Origin: Methylobacterium sp. 17Sr1-1
GTDB lineage: Bacteria > Pseudomonadota > Alphaproteobacteria > Rhizobiales > Beijerinckiaceae
Reading direction: 5' to 3'
NCBI RefSeq assembly: GCF_003173775.1
Contig: NZ_CP029552.1
Coordinates: 5,539,001 to 5,603,000, forward strand
Length of the DNA stretch: 64,000 nt
Position 1 is the first letter of the stretch. Each line of letters starts with the position of its first letter. The translations under genes were made by a program, and so were the position numbers. The notes below the pieces were generated by a model that did no database searches, was not told the DNA's origin, and saw nothing but the letters and a program-made list of their open reading frames with translations. Positions 29,388 through 40,791 of this stretch are shown piece by piece.

Positions 29388-29534
29388 GCCGGCCCGCTCG
29401 TCGAGACCCGCCTCTTCGATCGCCGACGCCGTCAAATCCCGGCCACGAATGCGCCCGGCCGCTTGATTCTCGCGAGGCCCCATCCAACCTCTATCCGATG
29501 GACTCCCAGCCCTACGGGAGCAGCCGGAGAGACG

Positions 29535-30926
29535 ATGGAACCGCGGACACCGGGCGAGATCCGCCTGCAGAGCCAGGCCGAGCCGGAGGCCGCGATCGCG
29601 GCCGAGACCCGCACGCTGGTGATCGGCCCCTACCAGACAAGGCGCGACGCCGGCGAACCCCGCCCCGTCCTCGCCCGCCTCGACGAGGCGGTGGGGCTGG
29701 CCGCCGCGATCGAGCTCGACGTGGCCGACAAGCTCCTCGTCACCGTGCAGCAGATCCGGCCCTCGACCTTCCTCGGCAAGGGCCGGGTGGAGGAGATCGC
29801 CGGGCGGATCGAGGCCGACGGCATCCGCCTCGTGGTGATGGATTGCGCGCTCTCGCCGGTGCAGCAGCGCAACCTGGAGAAGGCCTGGGGCGTCAAGGTC
29901 ATCGACCGGACCGGGCTGATCCTGGAGATCTTCGGGCGGCGCGCCTCGACCCGCGAGGGCACGCTCCAGGTCGAGCACGCGCACCTCGCCTATCAGCGCA
30001 GCCGTCTGGTGCGGTCCTGGACCCACCTCGAGCGCCAGCGCGGCGGCTTCGGCTTCCTCGGCGGCCCGGGCGAGACCCAGATCGAGGCCGACCGGCGGAT
30101 GATCCAGGAGCGGATGACCCGGATCGAGCGCGAGCTCGAGACCGTCACCCGCACCCGCGGCCTGCATCGCCGATCCCGCCGCCGGGTGCCGTACCCGATC
30201 GTGGCGCTCGTCGGCTACACCAATGCGGGCAAGTCGACCCTGTTCAACCGCCTGACCCGGGCCGAGGTCCTGGCGGAGAACATGCTGTTCGCGACCCTCG
30301 ACCCGACCGCCCGGGCGATCAAGCTGCCGCACGGCGAGACCGCGATCCTGTCCGACACCGTCGGCTTCATCTCCGACCTGCCGACCATGCTGATCGCCGC
30401 CTTCCGGGCGACGCTGGAGGACGTGATCGAGGCCGACATCCTGCTCCACGTCCGCGACATCGCCCACGAGGACGCGGAGGCGCAAGGAGCGGACGTGGCG
30501 CAGGTGCTGGCCGAGCTCGGCATCGAGCCCGACGCCGACCGCATCATCGAGGTCTGGAACAAGGCCGACCTCCTCGACGAGGCCGAGCGCGAGCGCCTGC
30601 TCAACCTGAGCCGGCCGAACGGCAGGAGCCCGACAGGTCAGGATGGGCCGAAGCCCGTCCTGCTCTCGGCGCTGACCGGCGAGGGCATCGACCGCCTGAT
30701 GAGCCGGATCGAGGCCCGGATCGCGGCGGCTCGCACGAGCTTCGCGGTGATCCTGGAGCCGGCGCAGGGCGCCGAGTTGCACTGGCTCTACGAGAACGCC
30801 GAGGTGCTCGATCGGCGCGAGGACGCGTCGGGCGACCTCCACCTCGTGGTCCGGGTCGCGCCGGAGAAGGAACCGCGCTTCCTCAACCGGTTCGGGGCGG
30901 CGCGGCGGCTGAAGGGGGTTGCGTAG
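29535..30926 (+). CDS. hflX: Ribosome-associated GTPase HflX
   Basis: HflX is a GTPase that splits or rescues stalled ribosomes under stress. The N-terminal glycine-rich domain ([13 protein letters not shown]) precedes the G domain with G1 [10 protein letters not shown]3 DTVGFI, G4 NKAD and G5 SALTGEG. It has 463 residues. The ATG at 29535 has GGAGAGACG just upstream, and earlier starts add unrelated sequence. The hfq-hflX order is conserved in the proteobacteria. Confidence 0.94.
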
Positions 30927-37994: not shown

Positions 37995-38789
37995 TCAGCG
38001 CTCCCGCCGTTTCACCGCGACCCAGGCCGCCTCCATGGCGGCGAGGCCGGCCTCCGGCAGGGTGCGGCCGTCCTTCGTCACCTCCTCCTCCATCGCGGAG
38101 AAGCGGCGCTGGAATTTGAGGTTCGCCCGCCGCAGGGCCTCCTCCGGATCGACACCGGCATGGCGGGCGAGGTTGGCGACCGAGAACAGCAGGTCGCCGA
38201 TCTCCTCCGCCACCGCCTCCGGGCCTTCGCCGGCGAGCGCCTGGGCGACCTCGTCGGTCTCCTCGCGCACCTTGGCGATGACCTCGGCGGCGTCCGGCCA
38301 GTCGAAGCCGACGGCCGCCGCCTTGCGCGAGATCTTTTCGGCCCGGGCGAGGGCGGGCAGCGCGAGCGGCACGCCGGCCAGCGTGCCCTCCTGTGCCGGG
38401 CGGCCCTTCGCCGCCCGCTCCTCTGCCTTGATCGCCGCCCATTGGGCTTTCACCGCGGCCTGATCGAGACCGCGGACCTCGCCGAAGATGTGGGGGTGGC
38501 GGCGCACCATCTTGTCGGCGATGGCGGTGGCCACGTCGTCGAAGGCGAAGGTGCCGGCCTCCTCGGCGATCCGGGCCTGGAACACGACCTGGAACAGCAG
38601 GTCGCCGAGCTCGTCGCGCAGCTCCTCCGGATCCCCGCTCTCCACCGCCTCGGCGACCTCGTAGGCCTCCTCGATCGTGTAGGGGACGATGCTGGCATGG
38701 CTCTGCGCCAGGTCCCAGGGACAGCCGCCGTCGGGATCGCGCAGGCGCGCCATGATCCCGAGAAGCCGCGCGATCGGGGGGGTGCTCAT
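37995..38789 (-). CDS. mazG: Nucleoside triphosphate pyrophosphohydrolase MazG
   Basis: MazG hydrolyses NTPs and dNTPs to monophosphates and helps to cleanse the nucleotide pool. The 264-residue protein has two MazG repeats. The N-terminal one has EEAYEVAEAVESGDPEELRD followed by ELGDLLFQVVF. The C-terminal one has KVREETDEV and EEIGDLLFSVANLAR. In related genomes mazG commonly follows hflX. Here it is about 7 kb away and on the opposite strand. Confidence 0.93.
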   Translation of the reverse strand: MSTPPIARLLGIMARLRDPDGGCPWDLAQSHASIVPYTIEEAYEVAEAVESGDPEELRDELGDLLFQVVFQARIAEEAGTFAFDDVATAIADKMVRRHPHIFGEVRGLDQAAVKAQWAAIKAEERAAKGRPAQEGTLAGVPLALPALARAEKISRKAAAVGFDWPDAAEVIAKVREETDEVAQALAGEGPEAVAEEIGDLLFSVANLARHAGVDPEEALRRANLKFQRRFSAMEEEVTKDGRTLPEAGLAAMEAAWVAVKRRER

Positions 38790-39696
38790 GCTCGCTCGCC
38801 ATCCGCCCGCGCCGCCTCCGGCGGCGCCTCGAACCCGCTCATAGGCGCCGCCGGGCGCCCGGGGAAGCGCGTGCGCCGACAGGGCAGGGGCCTGATATTC
38901 CTCATTTATTCCGTAAATTCCTAAAAAGCCTCGATTGTATCCAATCCGCGCCGAAGGCGCGTCATGACGTTCTTCAAAACGAACCCTCTCTCGGGCCTAT
39001 AGGTGACTTATCAGTCATGGAGTCTCAGAGAGTCAGTTATGTGGATTATATGGAGGGGCGAATTCCGATGACCCGGCAACGGTTTACGGGGTGATCGCGC
39101 ATACGGCTCTGCGTGGATCGGCATCGGACTCTGCGTGGAGGCGCATGGGATTCTGCGGGGATTTCGGGGATTCGCGCATCGGATTCGGCGTGGCCGCGCA
39201 TCGGATTCGGCGTCGGGCCCCGCCGCGTCCCTCGGCAACCGGCCGGTCTCGCGGGGTCCCCTGCGTATCGAACTCTGCGCGGGCCACGATCCCGCGATCC
39301 GGCCCCGTATCGAAGTCTGCGCCGGCTCACCCACTGCCCGTCCACCGGTTCGCCCACAGGCTCCGGACGGGCTCGTCCGGAGCCCGTCCCGGTCCGGCCC
39401 ACAGGGCCGTGCACAGGCCGCCCACAGGCCCGGAAGCGGGCAGGGGGCTCCCAGGGGGCTCCAGCCCTGAAACCGGGCTGTGGGGGGGCTCCCGGCGGGT
39501 CCGCGCGGCCCCCGCGGCGGGCGGGCGCCGGAATCCGCGCGGGATAACGGGGACGAGTCGCGGGAATCTTGGGATAACCCGTCCCGGCCCCCGGAATCCC
39601 GGGATCGGAATCGTGCATGAAGGCTTAGGCGTCCGGGGTTCGGCCCATCACCGGCGGGGAGCGCCGGGCACGGCCGGCAGGCAAGAAACGTCACGC
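38790..39696. other. Candidate plasmid-type replication origin
   Basis: This 900-bp gene-free stretch upstream of repA has an ordered set of origin-like parts. An AT-rich tract at about 38895-38945 has three ATTCC repeats (38898, 38909, 38918). TGTGGATTA at 39040-39048 differs by one base from the DnaA box TGTGGATAA. At least seven iteron-like copies lie between 39098 and 39325. A cluster of CCACAGG repeats spans about 39353-39430, and two GGGATAAC repeats lie near 39540 and 39571. Whether it is active is unknown. Confidence 0.55.
39098..39325 (+). repeat. Iteron-like repeat array upstream of repA
   Basis: The copies approximate CGCATCGGATTCTGCGTGG. The core (C/T)TC(T/G)GCG(T/G)(G/C)G is found at 39107, 39129, 39151, 39184, 39206, 39273 and about 39315. 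The distances are 22, 22, 33, 22, 67 and 42 bp, close to multiples of half or whole helical double turns. Spacing and position fit RepA binding sites. Confidence 0.7.
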
Positions 39697-40791
39697 ATGA
39701 GCATCGAGGCCAGGATCGCGGCGATCCACGACGAGGACCTCCTGGCCGAGCTGGAAGCGGCCCGGGGCGGGTTCCTGTTCGCGGTCATCGTCGAGCACAT
39801 CGCCCACCGCCAGGCCCTGCGCGACGCCGAGCGGGCGGAGGCCGGCCGCCAGCAGGATGCCCGCGCCGCCATGGGGCGCGACCAGCGCCGGCGCGACGCG
39901 GTGCGGATGGTGATCGAGGCCGAGCCCGTCACCCCGGACACGATCCAGCACATCCACTCCGTGCTGGCGCTCTGCGGATTGCCCTATCGCGATCCCGGCG
40001 AGGAACGGGAATTCTTTCGGGAATACGGCCGCAACACGCTCAGCATCCTGGCCGGCCGGCTGAAGAACCCGACCACCGGCCAGATGGAGCTGCAGGGGCT
40101 GCCCTACGGCCCCAAGGCCCGGCTGGTGCTGCTGCATCTCTGCACCGAGGCGGTGCGCCAGCGCAGCCCCACGGTCGAGGTCGCCGACAGCCTGTCGGGC
40201 TTCATGCGCGAGATGGGCTTCGCCGTCACCGGCGGCGAGCGCGGCACCATCCGGCAGTTCAAGGAGCAGCTGCATCGGCTGGCCGCCTGCACGATGCAGA
40301 TCGGCCTGTGGGACGGGCAGTCGCGCTCCTCGACCATCACCATGCCGCCCTTCCGCCAGCTCGACCTCTGGCGCTCCGGCGGCCAGGACGGCATCGCCTG
40401 GTCGAAGACGGTGCAGTTCCACCAGGATTTCTACGACAACCTGGTCCAGCACGCCCTGCCGGTCGACATCCGGGCCGCCCGCGCCTTCTCGGGCTCGGCG
40501 CGCAAGCTCGACCTGCTGTTCTGGGTCGGCTACCGCCTGCGCAGCCTGCAGCGGCCGCTGCGCCTCTCCTGGGATACGGTCCACAAGCAGTTCGGCGCCG
40601 ACAACGCGTCCCTCCGAAGCTTCCGCCAGGCGTTCAAGGCCGACGTGGCCCACGTCAAGGAGGTGTTTCCGAAGCTGCCGATCAGCCTCGACGAGGCCGG
40701 CCTGCAGCTGATGCCGACCGATCCCGGCACCCTCCTGGTGCCGCCGAAGCCCGCCCGCCGCAAGGCGGTGGCGCGGGCCGGGGCGGCCTGA
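39697..40791 (+). CDS. repA: Plasmid-type replication initiator RepA
   Basis: The product is a 364-residue member of the plasmid-encoded RepA family (PF04796 by recall). The hallmark is LQGLPYGPKARLVLLHLCTE, then AVRQRSPTVEVADSLSGFMR and a TGGERGTIRQFKEQLHRLAAC winged-helix segment. A C-terminal FWVGYRLRSL and WDTVHKQFGAD follow. Such proteins start replication of broad-host plasmids by binding iterons. Finding one beside mazG, ntr and dnaK-independent core genes suggests an integrated plasmid or a secondary origin. The ATG at 39697 begins the family-like region, and the upstream part of the frame is the repeat array. Confidence 0.82.
   Translation: MSIEARIAAIHDEDLLAELEAARGGFLFAVIVEHIAHRQALRDAERAEAGRQQDARAAMGRDQRRRDAVRMVIEAEPVTPDTIQHIHSVLALCGLPYRDPGEEREFFREYGRNTLSILAGRLKNPTTGQMELQGLPYGPKARLVLLHLCTEAVRQRSPTVEVADSLSGFMREMGFAVTGGERGTIRQFKEQLHRLAACTMQIGLWDGQSRSSTITMPPFRQLDLWRSGGQDGIAWSKTVQFHQDFYDNLVQHALPVDIRAARAFSGSARKLDLLFWVGYRLRSLQRPLRLSWDTVHKQFGADNASLRSFRQAFKADVAHVKEVFPKLPISLDEAGLQLMPTDPGTLLVPPKPARRKAVARAGAA

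Follow-up and report, generated by a model that had tools for sequence, protein, structure and literature searches.

A plasmid-type RepA and iteron module kept near dif in Methylobacterium chromosomes, a possible late or conditional origin

It is commonly assumed that a bacterial chromosome replicates from a single working origin. What, then, is the role of a locus with the layout of an iteron-controlled plasmid origin among the core genes of a Methylobacterium genome? The 64,000 nucleotides analyzed here (hereafter the window) are bases 5539001-5603000 of a single 6,542,583-base contig (6.54 Mb), which bears dnaA (469) and a parS-like site (4725372) and is therefore a chromosome, neither a plasmid nor a chromid; the module does not sit on an autonomously replicating plasmid. 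A preliminary description of the window had reported, within core chromosome and beside mazG, a RepA of the PF04796 type, at least seven upstream iterons mostly at 22-bp steps, a one-mismatch DnaA box at 39040 and an ATTCC tract, and each of these elements was recovered, as listed here in window coordinates:

about 29463-30926, putative hflX-like ORF, read from the ORF list
37995-38789, minus strand, mazG, upstream neighbor of the module in 47 of 76 relatives
38895-38933, no strand assigned, AT-rich tract with ATTCC repeats, candidate unwinding region (sequence, alignment)
38969-38984, no strand assigned, GTTCTTCAAAACGAAC, partly conserved, with inverted GTTC/GAAC ends (alignment)
38996-39053, plus strand, conserved 5' box CCTATAGG...TTATCAG...TCAGAGAGTCAGTTATGTGGATTATATGG (alignment of the window and 25 relatives)
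39040-39048, minus strand, DnaA box TGTGGATTA, one mismatch (sequence, alignment)
39099-39113, plus strand, iteron 1, core GCATACGGCTCTGCG (motif scan, as for all iterons below)
39121-39135, plus strand, iteron 2, GACTC in core
39143-39157, plus strand, iteron 3, GATTC in core
39176-39190, plus strand, iteron 4, GATTC in core
39198-39212, plus strand, iteron 5, GATTC in core
39265-39279, plus strand, iteron 6
39307-39321, plus strand, iteron 7
39697-40791, plus strand, repA1, full-length chromosomal PF04796 RepA of 364 amino acids (profile match, orthologs, alignment with plasmid RepA)

The RepA1 protein matches PF04796 (RepA_C) over residues 136-292 with 70.2 bits against a cut-off of 26, and this is the sole Pfam family above cut-off; an NCBIfam search with the protein gave no match. 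A search of solved structures with a RepA1 profile likewise returned no match up to an E-value of 5, and an AlphaFold2 prediction came out poor, at a mean pLDDT of 52.6. For close relatives of the protein, several database entries bear the name pirin, apparently a misannotation.

The cores of the seven iterons are separated by steps of 22, 22, 33, 22, 67 and 42, and the last ends about 375 bp before the repA1 start codon. No iterons were found on the minus strand of 38790-39696, and an eighth iteron-like match at 39525, with four mismatches, looks like chance. When the whole genome was scanned with the 15-base core, the only matches with at most one mismatch were four members of this array, while two mismatches gave 18 matches elsewhere versus 11 for a reversed control pattern. 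As the genome lacks a second iteron cluster, the action of RepA1 would be local, and a role as global regulator was rejected.

This architecture has close counterparts on free plasmids. Iteron plasmids with a PF04796 RepA, e.g. those of Xanthobacter dioxanivorans, Bradyrhizobium septentrionale (pBs1S1c) and Mesorhizobium jarvisii (pMJ700743b), share the RepA family, the iteron steps (about 22, 22, 32-33, 22, 66) and an AT-rich box beside the array; in the free plasmids of Xanthobacter, Bradyrhizobium, Mesorhizobium and Agrobacterium the steps are about 22, 22, 32, 22 and 66 and the array adjoins a TTCTG-repeat or TATATATGG-like box. The box at 38996-39053 is likely the counterpart of this plasmid box: among the alignment columns listed for the window and 25 relatives it is conserved just 5' of the array, and its strict pattern recurs in 50 of 75 loci. 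When the 220 bp 5' of the array were scanned in the 75 loci, the lowest GC content of any 40-bp piece had a median of 0.35. The module thus combines a RepA_C domain above cut-off, helically phased direct iterons by repA and a plasmid-like geometry. It differs from the plasmids in being chromosomal and core to the genus, in lacking any visible parA or parG beside repA1, and in its iteron sequence, which often contains GANTC. Furthermore, in free Rhizobiales plasmids the array lies downstream of repA in the opposite orientation, whereas the chromosomal array lies upstream, and the distance from box to array is longer in the chromosomal module. The near-identical steps and the box, with the array on the other side of repA, indicate that the plasmid-origin architecture was kept while repA was turned around; the flipped repA and the longer box-to-array distance mean that the ori may have been remodeled for another role.

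One such role would be purely regulatory or structural and no longer replicative, RepA1 being an autoregulated DNA-binding protein and the array now only its own operator. The placement of the array 5' of repA, the reverse of the plasmid order, means that it could serve as an operator, and there are no other sites in the genome. Nevertheless, seven phased sites plus box and AT-rich tract, spread over about 430 bp, exceed the needs of an operator, the last core is remote from the start codon, and no target beyond RepA1 itself was found; we therefore regard simple autoregulation as unlikely.

The protein of the window was used to scan public genomes, yielding 79 loci, of which 77 have Methylobacterium, Microvirga or Methylobacteriaceae in their titles, the remaining two being Beijerinckiaceae MAGs. 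A RepA1 match is present in all 111 genomes of the genus, with at least 70% identity in 110 of them, a figure that includes three genomes whose match is a fragment (G202, G259, G295) and three others whose match is interrupted by a single TGA (G235, G265, G288); in the one other (G198) the best match is only 65%, like the paralog. A second genus, probably Microvirga to judge from the named loci, has a match of at least 70% in 10 of 48 genomes, and across a family sample RepA1 occurs in 16 of 199 genomes, in two of 41 genera. The ratio dN/dS for repA1 is about 0.03-0.21 in ten pairs, which points to purifying selection on the protein, and 57 columns are identical throughout an alignment of 32 sequences (24 chromosomal RepA1, one RepA2 and seven plasmid RepA).

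The preliminary description had left it to relatives to show whether the repeats are conserved where repA is kept, and they are. Three of the 79 loci (L008, L073, L080) start right at the edge of a contig, so that nothing upstream is available; in all 76 others iterons occur upstream of repA in the forward direction, 2 to 7 each with up to three mismatches allowed, the locus with two (L070) having only 299 bp upstream. With L070 left out of the step and DnaA-box counts, the commonest steps over 75 loci are 22 (155 times), 33 (65), 68 (28) and 66 (15). A reverse iteron match occurs once each in four loci, the motif read backwards has no match in the 76 related upstream regions, and the arrays of Microvirga are less regular. 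A plasmid-style replication gene with its ordered binding sites is hence a fixed part of Methylobacterium chromosomes.

These observations bear on the options proposed at the outset, namely a plasmid integrated between hflX and mazG, a second origin that is dormant or conditional, or a RepA with a new function on the chromosome. Provided that the genomes are grouped correctly, recent integration is rejected by the genus-wide presence, the conserved iterons and the low dN/dS; the other two both fit. The RepA family and the iterons are certainly plasmid-type, as an ordinary recent integrant or a decaying relic would predict. Such a relic is, however, extremely improbable in view of the same genus-wide presence and low dN/dS, iterons conserved in 76 loci, and the absence of any other adjoining plasmid gene when the window's ORF list was inspected by eye.

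A further possibility is plasmid exclusion, in which RepA1 and its iterons would hinder the establishment of related plasmids that enter the cell. Consistent with this, none of the 863 plasmid records with a RepA1 match reaches 60% identity (the best plasmid RepA among the matches listed is 48.2% identical over 93% of the query), and effective exclusion would give just such an absence. Similarly, the array region gives short weak matches, covering at most 14% of the query, in eight plasmid records, on which ground plasmid carriers of the repA1 array were rejected. On the other hand, the iterons differ from those of known plasmid relatives except for part of TCTGCG, which makes cross-binding doubtful; nothing positive speaks for the idea, and the searches behind these absences may omit records near the window's own genome. 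We accordingly consider plasmid exclusion quite improbable.

Two kinds of potential control site accompany the array. The DnaA box at 39040 keeps its position only in the nearest clade, and in other clades DnaA-like boxes precede the first iteron by about 175-200 bp or lie within the array. Such boxes are found in 34 of 75 regions versus 81 of 3000 random 520-bp pieces, a comparison in which loci of the same clade are not independent; they are absent from the other 41 loci, and their positions vary by clade. The second kind is GANTC, which we take to be the CcrM methylation site. Its density is 19.5 per kb in the box and array versus 2.3 per kb in the whole locus, an approximately eightfold enrichment seen in the same direction in 76 of 76 loci, and explained in part by the iteron sequence itself, since 246 of 421 iterons contain GANTC. 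The window has seven GANTC in 346 bp, and only three of its 1274 sliding pieces reach seven, all three overlapping the array region. The GANTC-rich array, the purifying selection and the nearness to dif described below are new beyond the preliminary description.

The GC-skew analysis that it had proposed was computed and proved too weak to use. In its place we used the polarity of KOPS-like (FtsK) motifs, modeled on those of E. coli, and these are strand-polar in these genomes. In G209, for example, the motifs diverge mainly at one place, beside a parS, and converge mainly at another, 5.709-5.711 Mb. A dif-like site lies at the convergence in G209 (5709693), G232 (3789873) and the genome of the window, G000 (5612972), and the dif pattern is found in 110 of 111 genomes, the one without a match being G267. 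In a search for dif near RepA in Microvirga, 285 kb of one contig of G305 contained no dif-like site with fewer than five mismatches.

Distances could be taken where one contig carries both RepA1 and a dif-like site (at most one mismatch), as in 39 of the 77 genomes, out of 111, for which dif places were listed; the other 38 have the two on different contigs and are mostly drafts, G230 having only three contigs. The median distance is 62 kb (range 2.6 to 699 kb), with 17 of the 39 genomes within 50 kb and 30 within 150 kb, although seven of them have several dif-like sites, and there the closest was used, a choice that favors short distances. In 38 of the 39 genomes repA points towards dif, G236 being the exception. 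Where mazG is not the neighbor, dif is 2.1-2.8 kb from repA in six loci, and a position beside mazG is not essential for the module. This nearness may be passive, as symmetric inversions keep terminus-proximal genes near the terminus and in the same direction.

Could the module then organize the terminus or slow forks? RepA bound to phased iterons, possibly paired by handcuffing, might form a barrier or anchor near dif without any initiation. For such a reuse of a plasmid protein in termination there is a precedent in the Tus/ter fork trap, a chromosomal terminus function for which one study proposes an origin in plasmid genes, tus being probably domesticated from plasmids (PMC6549158). Tus, though, is of a different family, and repA1 encodes an initiator with iterons. 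The short distances in the six loci lacking the mazG neighbor, the orientation towards dif and the missing footprint of routine firing (below) would suit a barrier; against it, a range of up to 699 kb is loose for a fork trap, the FtsK-motif switch lies at dif and not at the iteron array, the full set of plasmid-origin features retained here is unneeded by a barrier, and pointing to dif is expected of any gene co-directional with replication. All told, a barrier or anchor seems to us a rather unlikely explanation.

A routinely used origin should be visible as a divergence of motif polarity at the locus. In the window, GGGNAGGG counts 22 to 2, with no divergence there; none was seen with strict motifs in G203, G209, G232 and G241, nor with GGGNAGGG nearby in G239 and G257, and at fine scale the motifs around the locus are mixed in G209 (6 to 11) and G232. 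The eighth genome, G221, is the exception: a predominantly minus polarity gives way to a predominantly plus one at about 330 kb, roughly 20 kb 5' of repA (350 kb), and switches back at dif (371.7 kb), leaving a 40-kb plus segment with minus polarity on either side. This segment (G221:C1, about 330-372 kb) might reflect a small inversion; alternatively, it may have been left by forks moving outward, of which it would be the one hint. A routinely active origin is thus unsupported, there being no divergence in seven of eight genomes, and any firing must be rare or short-range; firing of the repA1 module may be rare, late or conditional.

Among the readings considered, a late or conditional origin is probably the best for what looks, from the features above, like a domesticated RepA/iteron module, and we adopt it tentatively, as somewhat short of an even chance. 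The exception of G221, the further non-divergent genomes and the ParA-ParB pair at 3.39 Mb of G000 (below) pull in different directions and leave this estimate as it was. The chromosome would have acquired a plasmid-type module comprising RepA, phased iterons and an AT-rich/box region no later than the common ancestor of today's Methylobacterium, and would have retained it near dif under purifying selection. RepA would bind its own array and could open the adjacent AT-rich region, yet the module would stay silent in most cycles or fire only late, while the terminus finishes. Its gating might come from RepA autoregulation or handcuffing and from methylation by CcrM at the GANTC sites of the box and the array, and we infer that it would serve the terminus as an origin for rescue or timing. 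This suggests a spare or specially timed replication switch kept near the end of replication. A genus-wide, selected and complete origin module of plasmid type near dif offers a natural test of the fate of a second origin, which might be silenced, timed or used for finishing the terminus.

A close parallel in kind is chromosome 2 of Vibrio cholerae, where RctB, iterons and adenine methylation control the origin. In both cases a plasmid-type iteron initiator has been adopted by the genome; however, RctB drives a separate chromosome, whereas repA1 lies inside the main chromosome near dif and its locus is without the footprint of routine firing. Another comparison, which bears on the multi-dif chromosomes described below, is provided by the fused dicentric chromosomes of Agrobacterium, in which extra plasmid-type origins and centromeres lie in one chromosome (PMC12153318). 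Those fusions are strain-level events joining two large replicons with both origins active, as opposed to the genus-wide and small RepA1 module, which is without its own ParAB or polarity. Among open-licence papers, none appeared from its listing to concern the repA1 locus or multi-dif Methylobacterium chromosomes.

Several genomes of the window's clade have two to five or more dif-like sites each. The 6,988,191-base contig of G203 has five at polarity convergences, although at 1187639 the motifs are mixed at fine scale and the convergence depends on a minus run at 1.59 Mb; each of the four divergences examined there has a ParA-ParB pair, three of them RepB-type and one the canonical ParAB/parS. 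In G241, three dif-like sites (at most one mismatch) correspond to two clear convergences and a mixed one, and both divergences examined have ParAB. G000 has a ParA-ParB pair at each of its divergences at 0.27, 1.71, 3.39 and 4.73 Mb, the one at 3.39 Mb (3388596-3390832) with an RPA (PF10134) initiator 10 kb away, while 40 kb at a fifth candidate divergence, 5.86 Mb, holds neither ParA-ParB nor initiator genes. Two of its convergences have dif; near 1.24 Mb, 75 kb around a further convergence contains none with up to four mismatches, and another convergence lies near 4.1 Mb. The 1.57-Mb plasmid pMaq22A_1p of M. aquaticum has an RPA with 94.2% identity to that of G000, and in the 450 kb of the plasmid covered, polarity converges at a dif-like site (two mismatches) and diverges at a ParA-RepB pair. 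What is a free unit in one species thus appears fused in others. The dif flanks of G203 and G000 match plasmids partially, mainly through neighboring coding sequence.

As assembled, then, chromosomes in this clade have the appearance of several megaplasmid-like replicons fused together, and several dif and ParAB loci at polarity switches would make replicon fusion a lasting architecture rather than a strain accident. It is conceivable, if on the doubtful side, that Methylobacterium chromosomes have a terminus-proximal, RepA-driven, methylation-gated second origin and that, in this clade, the chromosome is moreover a stable fusion of such replicons, each with ParAB, dif and possibly an origin; if true, this would be a naturally multi-origin bacterial chromosome.

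A second RepA also occurs at such switches. In G000 a parA-RepB-repA2 locus (L152 7888-11475; G000:C1 about 269.9-273.5 kb) lies at the 0.27-Mb divergence; its RepA2 is 64% identical to the RepA of the window and has iteron-like repeats of its own downstream, as judged by eye. One of the RepB-type divergences of G203, with mixed motifs, has a second RepA that is 96.6% identical to this one. Further downstream of repA2 (L152 13345-18976), the translated ORFs look like an imuA-imuB-dnaE2 mutagenesis cassette.
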